The notes beneath the pieces are model-generated. The model was not told where the DNA came from and made no database searches. It was given only the letters and a program-made list of their open reading frames with translations. A stretch of DNA of 64,000 nt from Climacium dendroides (lineage: Eukaryota; Streptophyta; Bryopsida; Hypnales; Climaciaceae), in the NCBI GenBank assembly GCA_950106755.1, contig OX467086.1, forward strand, positions 20,292,001-20,356,000, in the 5' to 3' direction. Shown piece by piece: positions 7,051 to 51,549 of this stretch. Positions within the stretch are counted from its first letter, which is position 1, and every line of letters starts with the position of its first letter. Both the position numbers and the translations under genes were made by a program.

Positions 7051-8177
7051 GCAAGGCAACAACGATTCACTCCATTAGCGGGAGCCTCCTCCGAACCCCC
7101 CCGCGCCTACTGCACCGTCTTCCTGCATGTCTGGCTGCAATCCTATATCACCCCTGTCTTGCAAATATCTGAAGGAGAAAGCTCCGTCTTAAATCTAGTC
7201 GATCGGTAGACTGTGGTGATCAATCGGAGGACCGATTCAAGCTTTTCGGTGTCGAATTTGGGGCTGGGAGTCGAAAATCGGAAGCAATTAGGTACTGATT
7301 TGATTGCTGACTGGAGCTTGAATCTTGTTGTTAGGATTCTTGTTATTTTTTTAGGAGGATGTGGTTGAGATTGTTTGTTTGATTTGCTGTTGGTGATCTA
7401 GTAGTAAGGTGTGTGAGAATTAGATTGAGTCGGAGTTTCTTTGAAAAACTGCGAGGGTTCTGGGCTTGGTGAGACGATGCAACCGATCGGAAGGGAATGC
7501 TTTTGTTACTTAATTCCTTAAATCTAGAATTTAAACGGTGGACGCTATTCTTACAAAGTCTTTGCAGTGCTGCTTTAAGTGTTGGGAGGTATTTGTTCTG
7601 AGGTGGTTTTGGTGTTGTGCGAAGGTTCGAGGAACAGAGGAGATTGCTTAGAGAGGAAGAGGAGGAGAATCGCAGGAGGAAGCTGCTCAAGCTGATTTCA
7701 AGTCGAGAGAATATTGAAGGTTGGTGTTTTCGTTCGTTCTCCTGTTTGTTTGGGTGATCAGTTTTGTTGAAAACCTATCCGTTTGCGGTTCGCTTTTTGT
7801 TGTCTCGAGGTCGGGTAAGTGGCAGGTTTCATTTCAAATTCTGAGGAATTTTTGAACTCTAGGTTTGAGTTGGTGAGAGGTGAATACTCCGAGTTCAATG
7901 AATCACATGTCTCCCCTCTTTGGTAGAAGTGAACCCTAGTTTGCAGGTTCAGAAACATTTCGTGTTTTTTTTTCAAGATGGATTGACCGTCACCTGAGAT
8001 CACCTGAGTTTTCAAAAAAATGATCTGTACACGCGGGAATGGTGTCGGTATTTTCGTACAATTAGTGTTCTTTTAGTACCTTTTCATTTCTAAGTAGATG
8101 TTTTTGATTCTTTGATATGTTTCAGGGTGTAGGAGTGTACGAAATATTCAAGCAGAGGTTTGAGACAGCTAACGAAG
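7050..8177 (+). promoter_or_regulatory. Probable promoter and 5' leader of the alpha-kinase gene
   Basis: This stretch lies directly upstream of the kinase start and contains no convincing coding frame. A plausible leader intron runs from a GT at 7720 (context TTGAAG/GTTGG) to an AG at 8124-8125 (context TTTCAG/GG). That would remove most of the 450 bases before the start codon. The proposal rests only on splice-site appearance. Confidence 0.35.
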
Positions 8178-11100
8178 ATGAACATGGACCCGATCGCCGA
8201 GGGGTCTCATGAAGGCATGTCTACGAGCAGCCGTAAATTGTCGACTCGCGAAGTCGAGGCCAATGCGCAGTTGGAGCAGCTGAAGCGGGAAAATGAGCGC
8301 TTGAAGGCGACGAAAACGAAGACCAATTTAGCTCCTATTCCAGACGAGTCACCACGCACTTTGCAGGCTCGGGAGCAGCTCGAGCAGTTGAGACTCGAGA
8401 ATGAGAGGCTGATGGCAAGCCGACTCGCACCATCGGCCCCGCCTATGTCTTCCCGCACGTACCAGAATTTGAATCAAAGCGTCCTGGCAGCTGAGTCTGG
8501 AAAGATTAGTTATCCGAGCATTGTTGGATATCCTAAGGAGGGATCACCTCCTCATGTCGATGGTCCATCGACCCGAACGGATGGGCCGGAGACACAATCA
8601 CCAGCATGGATGGGTTCCAAGACCGCATCCAATTTACCTCCGGCTGGAATGTCTCCTCGAACCATGCAGGCCATGGAGGAGCTGAATGCTTTGAAGCAAG
8701 AGAACGCGAAGCTTGCGTCCAGTAAATTGGCTCCCAAGAGTGTGCAGCAGGCTCCTCCTCCTCGAACCGTTCAGGCTCCTGGGGATCAACAGTCTCGTGT
8801 GTCGCCCCGGACTGTCCAGGCCCTCGAAGAGCTGAATAATCTGAAGATGGAGAATGAGAAGCTTGCTGCTAGTAAACTTGCTGGACCACCTCCACCCTCT
8901 CGAGTAGGTGGAGACCAAACTTCTAGGGTATCTCCTAGGACTGTGCAAGCTCTTGAAGAATTGAACGTTCTCAAGAAAGAGAATGAGAAGCTCGCTGCTA
9001 GCAAACTGGCTGGACCACCTCCACCCTCTCGAGTAGGTGGAGACCAAACTTCTAGGGTATCTCCTAGGACTGTGCAAGCTCTTGAAGAATTGAACGTTCT
9101 CAAGAAAGAGAATGAAAACCTCGCTGCTAGCAAACTGGCTGGACCACCTCCACCGTCTCGAGTTGCTGCAGACCAAACTTCTCGGGTTTCCCCTAGGACT
9201 GTCCAAGCTCTGGAGGAATTGAACGTGCTCAAGAAAGAGAATGAGAAGCTTGCGGACAGTAAAATGGCACGGGCAGTTGGTGGTGACCAAAGCTCCCATG
9301 TTTCTCCTCGGACAGTGCAGGCACTTGGGGAGATGAATGCTCTGAAGGAAGAAAATGAGAGGTTGGCGGCAAGTAAAATCGCAAGCAAGGTGTCTACGAA
9401 AGTGGCCGCGCCAGCTTCGCTCTCACCAGCCACCAAATCAGCAGATGAGGCTGCAAGTGAACCGAAGGATCTTGGAAAGGAGAAGACGGCTGTGGCTGAG
9501 GAGGCTACACCAAATTTAGAAGCCCAGGGGAGTTTTTCCTTCAAAATTGATACGGTTAAGAGTCCTGAAGCTGAAAAGCCGAAAGCAACTGAAGTGGTTT
9601 CGCCTCTACCGGTCATGTCTTCACGCACTATTGCGCAAATCAGGAACGATCCTGCATTAGTGGAAGTTAAGACCAGAACAGCTCCTGCAGCTCCGCCACC
9701 TCCATCTGAAACCGCTGCGTCTGGTCGGACAGTGCAAGTTTTAGAGGAGTTGGAGAAGATGAAGAAAGAGAATGAATTGCTCAAAGCCAGCAAAGTAAAT
9801 GTTCCAGCTGGGATGTCTGACCGGACTCGTCAAGTCATGGATCAGCTTGAAAAGGTGAAGCGAGAGAATGCTGCGCTTATGGCGACCAAAGTGGATGCAT
9901 CTGCAACACAGCAGAGACGTTTAGCCTATTTGGAGCAGAATCATGCTATTGCGTCAAAGGCTCGCGGAGACGAAATCAAGAAGATGATCCTCACGGGTCA
10001 GGAATTAGATCTTGCATTTTTGGTGGATGCCACAGGCAGCATGCAGGTACTTCCTGTTTTTTGAAAGAGATGCCTATTGAGGTTTATGGAATTTTACATT
10101 AGGAGATTATGCAAGTGCCTCGCTCTATTCGTTGTGCTGCCGGTAGTTAGTTATTCTATTGTTCTAACAATCCTGCTGGTCATTTCTTCTATCTTCTTCT
10201 TTCTTCATTAAGTTCCAACGGCTTGCTTAATCACGATATTTTTTTGTCTTGTTTTGCAGACGTGCATCAATTTGATTAAAGACACAGTGGCCAACATGGC
10301 TGCTGGGATTAAGGTACAGTATCCAGAATGCAAGTTGCGTGTAGCGTTTGCACCTTATAGAGATTATGAGGACACTGTCAAGGATGACGACGAAGCTTGT
10401 GATTTCACGAGCAGCTTCACGGGACCAGATAGTACTTTTGTAAGAGCTTTGTCACGGGTGCGTGCTTCTGGCGGAGGAGATGATGCTGAGGACGTCTTCA
10501 CTGGCATTGCTCGAGTAGCAGGTTTCAACTGGAATGCCTCGAACAGGCTGCTAATTCACATCGCTGATGCTCCATGCCATGGTATCCAGTTCCATGACGG
10601 TGTGGGTGATCATTACCCAGCGGGGGACAAGTATGGCCGCAAAATTGAGGCTCAGCTGCAACTCCTTCATGAGCGCTGCAAAGTGTCAACGTATTTCTTT
10701 TGCCACCTGAATACAAGTACGAGAAAAATGCTGCAAGAGTTCAAAAAGGCCTCGGGAGGGGCAATTACAATCACAGAGGAGCAATTTTCCAACATCTCCA
10801 ATATCCCAGAGAAGGTGGTAACGTTGTGTCGAGGCACCATTCAAAAAACGTTGAGTGTGGTCGGTGTGGCGCACCCTCCAGGAGATACGAAGTTCGTGAA
10901 TGAAGTGGTTGTGACAGCCGTACCCTCTTGGGCTGACATTTCAATCCAGACTGGTTCTCACTACAAACATAAGTAAGTGTCCTCTGTAATTTGGTTGGAG
11001 TTGGGGTGCCGGTTGCTTATGACTAGTATTGGGTCTATTTGTTCGAAAAAACACGTCTTTTGTATATATTTGCAAAGAGGATTGAACTTTAATTTTACAG

Positions 11101-12522
11101 ATTTCTGCGTCAGACCTTTGATTGATGGGTGACTTGCAAAATGCAGGTGGTATCGGGCATTGGACGATCTATTAAGTAAGATTAATCGGAAAATGGCGAT
11201 TGATGAGGAAGTAGTAGATCACGTACAAGTTCAGATTGCGAAACACCCATTCAGCTCAGAGGGGGCGGTGAGATGGCCTTACTATGCAAAGATGACTCGC
11301 CCCAGTGAAGCTCCGCGGTGAGTAGAGCACTCCCTACTTGATCTTGAAATATCCCGCATTGCGTCTGCTTTGAAGAGTCTGCAAGATGATGGGCTCGCAT
11401 TAGCTACCAACGACTGATTCATTCTCATGTGTTCTCTTGCGATTCACTATTGCTTTTGACAGGTTCATGGTTGTCAAGAGATTCAAGACCGCACTCAACA
11501 AAGATGTTCGAGAAGTGCATAAGAGAGACCGTTATTTAGCTCAGATGGAGGTCCAGTCTGTGGCGGCTCAAATGGCCGAAGAATTCAATAATAGGTAAAA
11601 ATACATCTCTCGCATGTGAATTAGGTTTTCTTTTGAACAAGTAAGTCTTTTGTGTAGTGCTACCAGCGTCAAGTACGCAAGGATTCTGATTTTTGTACTT
11701 TCCTTAGGATCTGTCTATCAAAAGACTTACTTGGTGATCAGATTGTTACCCTGTAATCATCACAAACTGAGGATCTTTCTCATCGTTTTTTTAGGTTTCA
11801 CTAGTGAACACTTCCCTCCCTCCCGCAAGGAGCTATTCTAGAAACCTAGCCTCATTTTATTTATGTCAATTGTAACGCCATTCGAGACAGTTTCTAACGT
11901 AAAAAGTACTAATTGGAATGTGGTTAAGTTTTCTAGAATACCTCTTGGAGGGCTCAGATGGAGGTCCAGTCTCCACTGTTGTTCGAAACCAGCTGTATTC
12001 TGATCTTCGTGAGAGAACACTAAGATCATGCCTAATTTTCTGGGTATTTTGATTCACAGGACATCAAACTTCAAGAATGTAAAGAAGGTGGAGTTCACTC
12101 AAGTCACCACGCTGGAAGTGGGTTCTGGACCCACCCGAAAGTTCTACAACATGGAGGAGGTTCTCGAAGGCAACTGGATCCGGTATTCCAACAACGGTGG
12201 CTATGTCAACACACTGGACTACGCTGCTGTTTTGCAGGCCTTCACGCATTGGACCCACGAGCGATCTCGGGGTCTCTTGATGGTGAACGACCTCCAAGGA
12301 GTTCGCCAGAAAAATGAGCACGGAGAAAATGTTTTCCGTCTTTGCGATCCTGCCATCCATTGTACAGATGTCATGCGCTTCACGCGTACCAACCTCGGTG
12401 CGGAAGGCTTCAAGCTCTTCTTCGACACCCACAAGTGCAACGATGTTTGTAAGCATCTAGGATTAGCAGTTGGTACTGCTGGGCGTACAATATCAGGTAC
12501 CCATGTCGGTAAATACTGGTGA
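8178..12522 (+). CDS. Coiled-coil repeat / vWA / alpha-kinase protein
   Basis: Predicted atypical serine/threonine alpha-kinase of 1115 aa. Exons are 8178-10046, 10260-10972, 11147-11317, 11463-11594 and 12060-12522; all introns are GT-AG and all phases close. Residues 1-605 carry about ten copies of a SPRTVQALEELNxLKKENxKL-type unit, predicted coiled coil. A vWA domain follows (about 610-835) with MIDAS start D617-A-T-G-S621. The alpha-kinase domain spans about 885-1100. It has the likely ATP lysine K923 (VVKRFK), D1039 in NDLQGV, D1058 in DPAIH, the glycine loop TNLGAEG and zinc ligands H1062, H1086, C1088 and C1092. The vWA plus kinase half matches the architecture of Dictyostelium VwkA. 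The start is the first ATG in frame; a second ATG is two codons on. The substrate is unknown; membrane or myosin-related roles known for relatives are not shown here. Confidence 0.9.
8881..9267 (+). repeat. 129-bp in-frame tandem repeat inside the kinase gene
   Basis: The segment starting CTGGACCACC at 8881 recurs at 9010 and 9139, exactly 129 bp (43 codons) apart. The first two copies are almost identical at the DNA level. Each unit encodes one coiled-coil block plus a proline-rich linker (GPPPPSRV). More diverged blocks of the same motif flank it on both sides, so this is the recently amplified core of an older repeat. Confidence 0.9.
11952..11972 (+). repeat. Copy of a kinase exon-4 segment inside intron 4
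   Basis: Twenty-one bases here are identical to exon-4 bases 11539-11559 (core CTCAGATGGAGGTCCAGTC). The copy sits in the 465-bp intron 4 and is not bounded by splice sites. It looks like a small local duplication. Confidence 0.8.
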
Positions 12523-19799: not shown

Positions 19800-22700
19800 C
19801 TAAGAATCACTCTTCAAAAGGTTGTAAATTATAGAATTTAATCGTTCACCAAACGCTTGCCTTGAAAAGCATTCCTCCACATGCTTTCTCGCATTCTTGC
19901 CCATGACTTCTGCCCTGGAAGAATCTTGAAGGATCAGAGCCATCGCAGAAGCAAAGCTCTCTGGGGTAGATTCGCATAAGTAACCTGTCTTAGCATGTTG
20001 TATGGTTTCCTTCGGCCCCCCACTGTTACAAGCCACAACTGGCCTTTGAGCAGCCATTGCTTCAAGGGGAACAATGCCGAAGTGCTCATTCTGCATCAAA
20101 AATGCGACTGCCTTTAGCAGCAGCACAAAAACACAAGGCAATACATACTGCTCTGTTTCTGGGATTTGTTGGCAATTAAATTTTCTCGAGTAATTTCAGT
20201 TTTACCAGCAAGCGCAACGAATAAAAATTCTCTATGATTCACCTCGGTGGACAAACAAGCCTTGCAACTCAAAAGAAATACTTGGTGACAAGAGTTGGAT
20301 AATGGATACCATTGGAGTGTAAAGAACGCAGATGCAAGCCGCCAGCAAAGCGTTTCTCTGCAAAGTTGAACAAGATGGTACGAAGATCACTTGCTCAACC
20401 ACTCCCTCCTCCGTAGCCAACGTTTTAAGCTCTTGCAAATATTCCCGATTCTCTGCGAGTCGCTTATCATAGCCACCTGACGACTCCTAGAGTTATAATA
20501 ATGAACATCATAGCAGAACAATACCACAATGGTACAACCTATTTCAGGTAAATTTGTTCATGAAAGGATCTTTGTGGGTTTCACGAATGAAAATCCATGA
20601 CAGATATTTTTTTTTTAATAAATGAAGCAGGCAGCCCACCTGCAACAACTAAGCGAACAAGTTGTCGCGGCACACTGGTTAGCTGCGAGTTCTCTTGTTG
20701 CCTCACGAGGGTCGCAAATGCAGATATGGCAAGAGCAATGTTCTTCTTCTTCTCAAACCTGTTAATAGACAGAAAGGTGTGCCTGTAGGTACACGGAGGA
20801 ACGAGACACCAGTTTAATCCGAGTTCCAGAAAAACAGAAGATCGCAAATGGTCTTAACTTTCATTTAATTAATTAAAAGAGTTTATTAATACTATTATGC
20901 CAATATTTCATCTAATAAACCACGGCGCATATGGGTTTGAATTCACATACGCCCTGCAAAGTTCAAGATAAGATGATACATAGACAGGCCAGTACAAAAA
21001 ATAAAGCAAGAATCGAGTAGACCTAAGCAAACCAGTATATAACGACAATCTAATTTCGAACTCATTACACACCATACGGAGTCGTACTAACCCATCAGCT
21101 GAAAGTCCCGGTATGAAGGTGACATCAGGAGGATTGTCTAGATAAGTATCAAATTGATGGATATTGACAGCAGGATAGAGTACTCCCGGATGCAGGCCTC
21201 GCGCCTCAAGTCGAGTAAACGTGGAGCCAAATGTGGATGCTGTGAATTCACTGTTCACCAAAACGCTGTCCGCCATACCTGCGTTGGGGTCGAAGGCCCA
21301 TGAGCACCCCCTACCAGCAACGTACGACAACCACGAGCCAAGATGAAAAATTCTACCTCTGTCATAGCCACAGCCATAACCTAATCTGGTAGCTAACAAC
21401 AGGCCCTAAGATCAGCAAAGGTTGGTTTCATCAATTTCAATGGCCAGTCGAACCAATAAAAGATGAAATAAATTTAACCATTTCGGTGGCTCCAACATAT
21501 AAAGTTATGTAATGAAGAATGTAAGAACAAAACATTAAACACTGGATATCTGCAATAAGCCCATTATGAAACTCCCAGGGTCTGAAAACTTGAGAGGCAC
21601 TGAAAAGTTTGGAAGGTCACAAACCAGTGGTGGTTTCCTCAATCCAATTCAGAGGCGCTCGATAAAGTCTGCGAAGCCAAGTTGTGCGCTGAGCAAGAAG
21701 CATGTCTGGAAAATGGCAGTAGAACAAGACCTACCGAAGGCCAAAAGCACAGGCTCAAAATCTTTTAGAAAATGCTAAGCACATATTTTAAGAAGGCAAT
21801 ACCACGATTGCCGAGTTTTACCGTGGTATTGCCTTGTAATTAGAGAGCATCCGATGTAACATTAGTGCGTGATATGAAAAGTATAAGATTGGACAGATGT
21901 GGCATAAATGAACTTGAAAATGAATACAATCCGACACAATAAACAGGAATCTTGCTGAAACTAAGAAATTTCTAATGCTACGCGAAAAAATCTCACCACT
22001 GTAGGTGGGGCATTAAGGGCAAAAATGTCATGGAGCAACAAACTGAGCAAAACTGAGGACGAATGAATTGTACTCCACCGTCTAATGTAGAAGAGAATAA
22101 ACATGTCCTGTGAGGCAACAATTCAGGCAATTGCATGTGCAGAGACATTCATAGAGCGCTGCACTAGAATTCAAATATGAGGCATTTCTAGAGGGATTAC
22201 CTTGCATCCTCTCTTCAATTTAAGAACGGGTACGACGGCAGAAACTTGGTCCGCGAAAACAACATCAAACTTCGGCCACAAGAGAACCATGCAAATTGCC
22301 ACGTAAACGCAACGAATATACGCGCAGACAGCATGTAATCGATTGAAAACATGTCGAGGTAGAAAGTCACCGTAAACTGTTACAGGGAAGCTCCCTGCAG
22401 ACATGGCAACAACTAAGATTAATCCGTTTCTCACGCCATTTCTCTAGCCGACACTCTCAGAGGCACTTGCAAGACTCAATTTCAGATAGTTTTAGCATCA
22501 TCAAGAAGACAGAAGAGGAGAAGCACCATCGATCGTCTCCTCGAAGCATCGCTTCTTGTCATGATGCGCTGTGAAAATGTGCACATGATGTCCTAGCGCT
22601 GCCAATTCCACAGCAGCGTCCACGGCCAGCCTTTCTGCACCACCTGAGCAATGCAATGCAATCAGACTACGGTGAGCGAACATTTTTTGCTTAAAATTAA

Positions 22701-27980: not shown

Positions 27981-28474
27981 CAAGTAGAGAGGCTGATTTC
28001 ACGCCAAATGAAACAATTTGTCATTGCTAGGTATCAAATCCGCAACCACGCCATTCAATTTGGGTACCTTTCCACCATCATTCGTTAGTTTAAGGTCATC
28101 TCAGACTAGTACACCAAGTAGAGAGTCTGATTTCACGCCAAATAAAACAACTTGTCATTGCTAGGTATCAAACCCTTAGTTTAAGATTTCACGCCAAATA
28201 AAACAACTTGTCATTGCTAGGTATCAAACCTTTAGTTTAAGATTTCACGCCAAATAAAACAACTTGTCATTGCTAGGTATCAAACCCGCAACTACGTCAC
28301 ACCATTCAAATAAAACAACTTGTCATTGCTAGGTATCAAACCCGCAACTACGCCATTCGCCAAATAAAACAACTTGTCATTGCTAGGTATCAAACCCGCA
28401 ACTACGCCATTCACACCATTCAGTTTGGGTACCTTTCCACGTTAGTTTAAGGTCATCTCAGACCACTACACCAT
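27981..28474 (-). repeat. SINE-like sequence with an amplified ~55-bp unit
   Basis: The core TCATTGCTAGGTATCAAA occurs six times (near 28020, 28155, 28211, 28268, 28322 and 28377); the last five form a tandem array of about 55-bp units. Read on the minus strand, the end near 28472 gives TGGTGTAGTGGTCTGAG, similar to a tRNA 5' half and A box. GCGGGTTTGATACC resembles a pol III B box. A diverged copy of the same layout starts near 28115. A tRNA-derived SINE origin is an inference. Confidence 0.6.
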
Positions 28475-34032: not shown

Positions 34033-36300
<2,268 letters not shown>

Positions 36301-49283: not shown

Positions 49284-51549
49284 TTAGTTAAATGTACCAT
49301 TCTCCATGATTTTGATCCCCCAGCTCACGTCCTCACAGTGTTGAATGTAGGGAAGAATTCTTCCAGAATCTTGACCCCAACCGTTGTTATCACAATCTAA
49401 TAATGGAGCAGCATGGAAGCAAGGCTCTATCGATACACCATGGTAACAATGACCTTGTTTTCGGATTACCTCCTCAGCAGTCGCCACACTTTCAATCCTC
49501 GTGAGGATCCAAGGGGTCACTCCCGAGATTCCCTGTGCAACATATCCAAAAGTAGACCACGCACTGGTGACGAGAGTGTCACAGAATGACAGAAGGTACA
49601 TGTCAGCCAATGCCTTCTTGTCGTGGTCTACCGAATTTTTAGCTTGCTCCTCCTCATGGCTCGCTGTATACACGCCCACACCGTGACCGTCTGCAGTCGG
49701 ATGATTCAGATAGAACCCTCGTATTCTTTCGTAAAAGATTCCATGCAGAGATGCAATTAGGACGGAGATGGAATTTGTTCTGGGAGCATTGTCAACATGG
49801 GCTTCACTCAGCGACGTCACGTTGGGCAGCAACTTGTTTTCAAGAACGCAGGAAAGAATCTGCGAGACAGCAGGAACACCTATTTGTCAAATCTTGCTGG
49901 AGGAAACCCTTTGGTTAGGATGTAGGGCTGTACTAAATAATTAGAAACCAAGCACAGCACCAGTTGGAACATGGAGTTCAGATTCTTGATTGACAGTAGC
50001 GATCCAAATGCAAGGGCACAGTGTGCAGATCGAGGAAAACGGCAGACAACGGAATCTTCAGAATTCAGGAAGTCATGGAAGCAACGCTTACCAAATCTAA
50101 GATTGTAGACAACATAGAATTGGGGTCCTTGACACGAATTTGAAGTCCTACTTTGCGTTGCGCGCTGGACAGTTTCGTACTGAAAAATGGTGATATCATG
50201 CTCCACACGGAATCAGACGGATGAAGCAGGTAGCGGATGATATGATGAAATACCATCTCCCGATCCGGAAAGAGCCTGTCGAGCTCCGCATGGAATTCAG
50301 ACACAAAATGAAGCCCCGGGACAAAATACTGATTGGACCTCGAGAAAAGCCAAGGGAAGCTTCTTAAATAGTCTTGGTATCTTGCACAAAAAAACCTCCT
50401 GTCATCTTCATCATTGTCGTGCATTAGGCTGACATATGCATAACCGTTATGCAAAGAGGTGAAGGTGCCATTTCGGGTCAAGGACCCAAACCTAAACGAA
50501 GATTCCTCACCTAATTCTGTCGCCCACTGATTGGGGAAGGATTGTGGAAGCAGCCACGATGTATCGGGAAAGGGTTCGCAAAAGAGCTCGTCAACGTTGA
50601 TGCTTGGATCAATGAGGAGCACTCTGTCGGTCAAGAGCGCATACACGAATGCCGATGTAAGGGTCATGATTCGGTTGCCAAGGCCGCTTGAAGCAATCCA
50701 CACAATAAACTGGCATCCTCCGAAATCTTGCTCCGTAGCATTGCTCCCTGGGCTGAACTTTATTACCTCTTGAGCACATTTCCGGTGACGACGCTCATAC
50801 TCACGAAGCTTTGAAATCAGGTATGATGAAGGCTTGTACCTGGACGGTGTTCGCATAGAATACTCTTGTGATCTGCTGGTACAGTTGGTGCCATTAAAAA
50901 CCTCAGGTGGGAATAATAAGCCTTCTAAAGTCTCTTCTGGATTGCTCCTCGCCGCCTCCGAGGTTTTTCCTGCAAGTGCGTGGAAGTAGCTGCAATCAGG
51001 AGCTTTTTTTCAATGACGCTCCTAAACGATATTCCGATGCCAAGAACGAAACGAAGAAATTCCTCAAGGAAATTTTCGCAACCTAGATCTAATATTCTAT
51101 TCACTCCCCCAGCCAGATTTAATCTCGAAATGATAACCGCGCTTCCGCTCAATTTTGCCTCCCTCGGTTCTCCAAGTGTGGAGTAAGAGAATCGTTATGT
51201 TCGAAGAAACAGCGAACTGACCACCATCGAAGTCAATTTGGTGCAAATTTGTGACGCCACTACAATCGATTCAAAATTAAGGGTAAAAGTCTTGTACCAA
51301 AGCTAGCGGTGTAGAAGACGCACCTCGGGCGGCAATCAATGAAGACTCGAGCAGGCGCTCGCGGAGAGTTGATGTGAACGTCAACGAGATTGGAACCAAG
51401 AGAATTGACACTCCAAAACATATCATCAACGCAAGTTTCACCGTCAATGATTTTCCTGACCAGCCGCACATAAACTCAGAACTTCCCAGCATTTTCTTCC
51501 CCGAGTATACCAAAGGCCCTTCCTCACACGGTGTCCGCCGTGTGTCCAT
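49284..51549 (-). CDS. GT37 xyloglucan-type fucosyltransferase
   Basis: Golgi type II membrane glycosyltransferase of family GT37, which transfers fucose from GDP-fucose onto cell-wall polysaccharides or arabinogalactan proteins. Exons in transcript order are 51549-51324, 50969-50092 and 49859-49284, GT-AG, phases closing, 559 aa, equal to typical family length. Residues 1-35 are a cytosolic tail, about 36-59 the membrane anchor (LALMICFGVSILLVPISL), followed by a stem. Catalytic-domain motifs are SSGLGNRIMTLTSAFVYALL, TDRVLLIDPS, the nucleotide-binding VGLQIRVKD, TSAWSTFGYVAQGISG, and C-terminal CYHGVSIEPCFHAAP with DCDNNGWG. NGT/NAT sequons are present. Acceptor specificity cannot be read from sequence; GT37 is a multigene family in land plants. 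Confidence 0.93.

Follow-up and report, generated by a model that had tools for sequence, protein, structure and literature searches.

What kind of protein is encoded by a long gene of the moss Climacium dendroides, and does it, as an earlier note made from the sequence alone had claimed, fuse the layouts of the kinases MHCK-A and VwkA in one chain? The gene occupies positions 8178-12522 on the forward strand of a stretch of 64,000 nucleotides (contig OX467086.1, positions 20,292,001 to 20,356,000), which was analysed as a whole and is called the window below. Alpha-kinases have been studied mainly in animals and amoebae. Judged by its sequence, the protein is a moss member of the eukaryote-wide and already-known family of vWA-alpha-kinases (VwkA type), inherited within the green lineage. 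Here an array of ten helical repeats fronts this known kinase type, in a little-studied plant branch of the family. Taken as a whole, we consider it likely that the protein is an active VwkA-type kinase that is placed by its vWA domain and carries a multivalent array of N-terminal helices.

The coding span extends from ATG to TGA over exactly this interval and is divided into five exons, which code for 1115 residues. Introns 1 to 4 have lengths of 213, 174, 145 and 465 bases, all four show GT-AG boundaries and the frame is continuous, while a stop codon is found in frame at 8130, upstream of the ATG. The parts of the gene are as follows.

8178..12522, forward strand: entire coding span of the vWA-alpha-kinase gene (GT-AG introns, open frame, upstream stop)
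8178..10046, forward strand: exon 1, residues 1-623, with the repeats and the beginning of the vWA domain
10260..10972, forward strand: exon 2
11147..11317, forward strand: exon 3, in which the kinase domain begins
11463..11594, forward strand: exon 4, N-lobe of the kinase with the ATP lysine K923 (codon 11476-11478)
12060..12522, forward strand: exon 5, C-lobe of the kinase with D1039, Q1041, D1058 and N1073, and C-terminal tail
within 12060..12522, forward strand: zinc ligands of exon 5, H1025, H1086, C1088 and C1092
9981..10886, forward strand: vWA domain, approximately residues 602-832, split by intron 1 (10047-10259), with the MIDAS-like (metal ion-dependent adhesion site) residues D617, T619, S621, D697 and D726

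The exon junctions, which were set from splice signals and frame only, are all spanned by two related proteins, P0001 and P0002, and by P0003 from Physcomitrium, with no gap within 8 residues. The proposal that exon 1 is joined to the kinase exons is indirectly supported by these crossings. P0001 (846 residues, from a 3,016-base contig) and P0002 (876 residues, from a 3,600-base contig) share 94% and 90% identity, respectively, with residues 600-1115 of the Climacium protein. Given their size and uninterrupted frame, the two contigs are best explained as complementary DNA. Junctions 2-4 are also spanned by P0035, and junctions 2 and 3 by P0036, which shows 98% identity over 64% of a 510-residue query. 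P0036 ends exactly at the exon-4 donor, and read-through into the Climacium intron 4 (11595-12059) meets a stop immediately. It looks like a transcript in which introns 2 and 3 have been spliced out and introns 1 and 4 retained. Such an intron-4 retention product would have the vWA domain and the N-lobe of the kinase without the catalytic C-lobe.

Nothing was found in favour of a pseudogene, or of an artefact of assembly or gene modelling that fuses separate genes, and both are extremely improbable. P0001, P0002 and P0003 carry repeat units, vWA and kinase within a single chain across the four ungapped junctions, and the ratio of nonsynonymous to synonymous substitution rates (dN/dS) is below 1 in all 25 repeat pairs, of 45, for which it could be estimated.

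The protein matches the alpha-kinase profile PF02816 with 158.3 bits against a cut-off of 21.3 (E=3e-46), and the alpha-kinase fold was found. The motifs DATGS, VVKRFK, NDLQGV, DPAIH, TNLGAEG and THKCNDVC, which the earlier note had quoted, all occur in the translation, and its assignment to the alpha-kinases with a complete kinase domain is confirmed by a profile match so far above the cut-off. In an alignment with references and relatives, the ATP lysine K923, the catalytic D1039-x-Q1041, D1058 and N1073 of the TNLG motif are present; in this alignment the eEF2K fragment is out of register at the lysine, a residue that lies beyond the MHCK-A fragment. The zinc-site pattern of His and His-x-Cys-x3-Cys is complete, its four residues presumably serving as zinc ligands. 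With catalytic and zinc residues intact, the protein is likely an active Ser/Thr kinase. The chain stops 23 residues past the last zinc Cys.

Of the two profile matches proposed as a check, that to the kinase was obtained, while that to vWA reaches 22 bits and lies below the 27-bit cut-off. Among five relatives scanned, this cut-off is passed by three (P0003, P0008, P0009) and failed by P0013 and P0044. The vWA fold was found and is backed by a structure model of a close relative. A canonical MIDAS is defined by DxSxS, a Thr and an Asp. In the Climacium protein, DxTxS and the third-loop Asp are present, and the position of the usual Thr, assigned by its place in the loop, is occupied by Asp (D697), which is invariant in all 43 alignment rows having a residue there. 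The expected combination of vWA and alpha-kinase in one chain is found in the Climacium protein, and relatives have both domains in the same order.

The protein does not unite the layouts of MHCK-A and VwkA: its C-terminal half is homologous throughout to eukaryotic vWA-alpha-kinases, and WD repeats gave no Pfam match at E up to 1. With VwkA from Dictyostelium it shares the succession of vWA and alpha-kinase, the family being homologous over both domains, and it differs in the extended array at its N-terminus, which consists of ten helical repeats. The hits included no sequence identified as Dictyostelium VwkA; the source records of P0066 and P0067 carry the label vwkA. VwkA is located on contractile vacuoles and the Golgi and affects myosin II (PMC4083560), and it binds calmodulin (PMC7072818).

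The named relatives that score highest among the matches listed are from mosses (Physcomitrium, Ceratodon, Sphagnum), followed by liverworts (Riccia, Calypogeia) and the fern Adiantum. Because Climacium is a moss, the earlier note's comparison with flowering plants does not arise, and a flowering-plant origin is ruled out by the closest named relatives among these matches. The proteins annotated as 'Alpha-type protein kinase domain-containing' in Physcomitrium patens and Ceratodon purpureus, with 73-74% identity over vWA and kinase, are orthologous or nearly so and have the same domain order. Repeat units are recognisable in them but are fewer and more decayed, and the 129-bp tandem array described below is a feature of Climacium.

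The proposed phylogeny was calculated from 43 rows and 486 columns. A branch with a support of 100/100 sets land plants and the green alga Haematococcus together, apart from the remaining rows; within this group the tree leaves Haematococcus either inside or beside the land plants. The 20 land-plant rows include P0001, P0002, P0007, P0037 and P0039, which were assigned to plants by identity. Outside the green group are proteins from fungi, from the rotifer Adineta, the nematode Panagrolaimus and the diatom Seminavis, and P0066, whose label we take to denote a sponge. Non-plant proteins such as P0053, P0057, P0058 and P0066 are 30-33% identical to the 510-residue query along 96% of its length. 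Long branches were flagged for P0071, P0017 and P0015, all of which are outside the group of land plants and Haematococcus. A recent transfer from fungi is not favoured, with land plants joining Haematococcus away from the fungal rows.

A second lineage (support 100/99) consists of P0008 from Ceratodon chromosome 9, P0012 from Calypogeia, and P0039. P0008 and P0012 also combine vWA and alpha-kinase with tandem N-terminal repeats, but the unit differs, being of the type SSxSxAIxLRNxELERxL. Since this lineage has a different tandem repeat, N-terminal repeat arrays occur in two lineages. In P0013 from Riccia sorocarpa, a ubiquitin domain (PF00240, residues 661-734) is found C-terminal to the alpha-kinase, which may reflect either the true architecture or a fusion in the gene model.

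No named seed-plant homologue is among the matches listed for the protein searches, and neither Marchantia nor Selaginella is named there. This is a weak indication of absence from seed plants, because each search scored only about 8,000 candidates and, in one of them, the matches listed lack 10 of the 19 sequences that made up its query alignment.

The repeat region of exon 1 contains ten complete units of 25 residues. Each of them scores 28-61 bits against a profile of the other nine, a value that did not exceed 2.8 bits in 300 shuffles of residues 1-600. The units are listed with these leave-one-out scores.

8241..8315, forward strand: repeat unit 1, residues 22-46, 28.3 bits
8349..8423, forward strand: repeat unit 2, residues 58-82, 39.2 bits
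8652..8726, forward strand: repeat unit 3, residues 159-183, 47.9 bits
8802..8876, forward strand: repeat unit 4, residues 209-233, 54.8 bits
8931..9005, forward strand: repeat unit 5, residues 252-276, 61.2 bits
9060..9134, forward strand: repeat unit 6, residues 295-319, 57.6 bits
9189..9263, forward strand: repeat unit 7, residues 338-362, 55.4 bits
9303..9377, forward strand: repeat unit 8, residues 376-400, 49.7 bits
9720..9794, forward strand: repeat unit 9, residues 515-539, 45.8 bits
9816..9890, forward strand: repeat unit 10, residues 547-571, opening the long helix into the vWA domain, 32.4 bits

Degenerate copies begin at residues 91, 195 and 481. Units 5 and 6, which are 97% identical at the DNA level, lie within a 129-bp tandem array (8850-9250). 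S1, R3, E17, N18 and L21 are invariant in all ten units, and T4, Q6, L11, K15 and K25 are kept in nine. The count of ten blocks in the earlier note was correct, but its pattern SPRTxQxLEELNxLKxENxKL applies literally to only three of them (those starting at residues 209, 252 and 338). Nor is the Ser-Pro said to be present in every block universal: SPRT is found in seven units, and the conserved element is S-x-R-T, which related moss units also have, with other residues. Proline-directed phosphosites in each block were rejected on these grounds. Ser-Pro dipeptides number 12 in residues 1-600, against a mean of 5.4 in 2000 shuffles (standard deviation 2.1, maximum 14). Over 43-codon periods, dN/dS is 0.06, 0.07 and 0.19, and over the 25-codon units it ranges from 0.01 to 0.64 with a median of 0.26. 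The repeats are real and conserved. Complete units number four in P0001 and five in P0002, the N-termini of both being perhaps cut, and four plus a near-complete one in P0005. No Pfam domain was matched in the repeat region except for a sub-threshold Propep_M14. An actin-binding, WH2-like reading of the helix and LKK was dropped, as Pfam WH2 gave no match at E up to 1, a search in which the HMMER filters remove most weak matches.

Do the repeats form a coiled coil through which the kinase oligomerises, as had been proposed? The structure model is that of the relative P0001, which has a shorter N-terminus. In this model all four complete units are helices (starting at 39, 84, 241 and 279), the first helical residue being one past the Ser. 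The stretches between them (16-37, 64-81, 110-237) have values below 50 in the predicted local distance difference test (pLDDT), and the linker ahead of the last unit is short, with a pLDDT of about 60-67. The last helix (279-338, 60 residues, corresponding to residues 548-607 of the Climacium protein) enters the vWA domain. As the modelled helices begin one residue after the Ser, a role of the S-x-R-T Ser as helix N-cap would fit at least as well as one as a phosphosite.

A leucine-zipper-like coiled coil that leads to a kinase dimer or larger oligomer would be comparable to the trimers or tetramers of MHCK-A. L11 (nine of ten units), L14 (eight of ten, otherwise M or V), N18 and L21 (ten each) fit the a-d-a-d register with Asn at 'a' that is familiar from leucine zippers, the helices of P0001 include the one of 60 residues, and the coiled coil of MHCK-A self-assembles (PMC4876393). 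However, hydropathy power at a period of 3.5 residues is not significant for the units (p = 0.36), periodicity is not significant for the last helix (p = 0.45), and two heptad register tests gave p = 0.44 and 0.52; with 22 columns, these tests are weak. In addition, each unit offers only about two good heptads, and in the P0001 model the units are mostly set apart by low-confidence linkers and so do not build a continuous rod. The earlier proposal finds no backing in the periodicity tests, the model has separate helices on linkers, and we give the coiled coil somewhat less than even weight.

Alternatively, the repeats may be recognition helices for another protein, with S-x-R-T and helix forming one site and the copy number tuning a flexible string. 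The polar residues S1, R3, E17 and N18 are invariant over the ten units, the linkers are Pro-rich and copy number varies among relatives, but the region gave no Pfam match beyond the one mentioned. We regard this as possible, if short of probable.

MHCK-A, which presumably lacks a vWA domain, has the same alpha-kinase fold and catalytic residues as the Climacium protein, which ends shortly after its zinc site, differs at the regulatory pocket and gave no significant heptad signal in its N-terminal helices. MHCK-A carries a coiled coil at its N-terminus and WD repeats at its C-terminus, the activating phosphothreonine is bound via Lys684, Arg734 and Thr736, and the activating Thr carries a hydrophobic residue at +2 (PMC4876393). 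The counterparts in the Climacium protein are K970, A1017 and V1019, so that one of three side chains is kept and the pocket probably does not work alike. Val at the last position is common to the six rows of the moss clade of Climacium; the remaining land-plant rows in the tree, 14 in number, all have Thr there. The middle residue is Arg in Sphagnum, its near copy P0037, Diversispora, Ambispora and eEF2K; the MHCK-A tree row is gapped there and was read from the reference comparison. In this moss clade, control through the phosphothreonine pocket that MHCK-A and eEF2K use is probably missing or changed. The tail of the moss clade retains S-G-T-x-V, which is reminiscent of the Thr that activates MHCK-A and eEF2K. 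G-T-x-V/L past the zinc site (12448-12522 in the window) is seen in the moss clade, Sphagnum, P0007 and P0038 from Riccia fluitans, and is not found in Adiantum or P0008.

It is very unlikely that the kinase is a moss eEF2 kinase or an equivalent translation regulator. By E-value, eEF2K is the best sequence match in the PDB, a ranking that mirrors which structures were solved, and the alpha-kinase domain is shared. However, vWA relatives match over both domains and eEF2K over the kinase part alone; eEF2K presumably lacks a vWA domain. The N- and C-terminal parts differ, with the Climacium protein stopping soon after its zinc site and having no eEF2K C-terminal part, and two of three pocket residues are unlike those of eEF2K (Ala and Val instead of Arg and Thr). 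The segment before the kinase aligns with eEF2K at the place of its calmodulin-binding site; no motif is claimed.

For the favoured reading of an active, vWA-placed kinase with a multivalent helix array, the following mechanism can be envisaged. The vWA domain would bind a partner via its metal site, where the usual Thr is apparently replaced by the invariant Asp, and would then position the kinase. The short helices on flexible Pro-rich linkers could make many weak contacts, with the protein itself or with a repeated partner, and these would raise the local concentration and thereby autophosphorylation. The substrate cannot be the heavy chain of myosin II, because plants lack myosin II (PMC4083560). 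Several points weigh against this reading: the vWA score is below its cut-off, the helices are modelled in a relative with fewer units, the periodicity tests do not favour self-association, dS is saturated in 20 of the 45 repeat pairs so that selection is read from 25 pairs of 25 codons, and the retained tail Thr does not suit a simple loss of the pocket.

A more extended scenario, which we consider doubtful, has a vertically inherited vWA-alpha-kinase branch kept in plants without seeds and in one or more green algae and lost in seed plants, with arrays built independently in two paralogous moss/liverwort lineages under fast copy-number change and with the pocket switch given up. If true, the helix array rather than the phosphothreonine pocket would set kinase activity, by clustering. 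No paper on plant alpha-kinases was found among the literature matches listed (several result sets being larger), and the literature search found none joining alpha-kinase and Physcomitrium. A conserved and intact-looking family in mosses, liverworts and ferns suggests that land plants may use a class of kinases that follows substrate rules of its own. Physcomitrium is genetically tractable and has the gene, so this moss could reveal what ancient vWA-alpha-kinases do where the substrate is not myosin II.

Nine other frames of the window were scanned against Pfam, and five matched, consistent with a plant.

19800-20195, reverse strand: glycosyltransferase group 1 frame
34500-34934 and 35549-36070, reverse strand: class III peroxidase, two frames
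49284-49886 and 50065-51009, reverse strand: xyloglucan fucosyltransferase, two frames

Rfam and ARAGORN scans of the 64,000 nucleotides gave no match. A 56-bp tandem repeat is present in five copies at 28129-28404.

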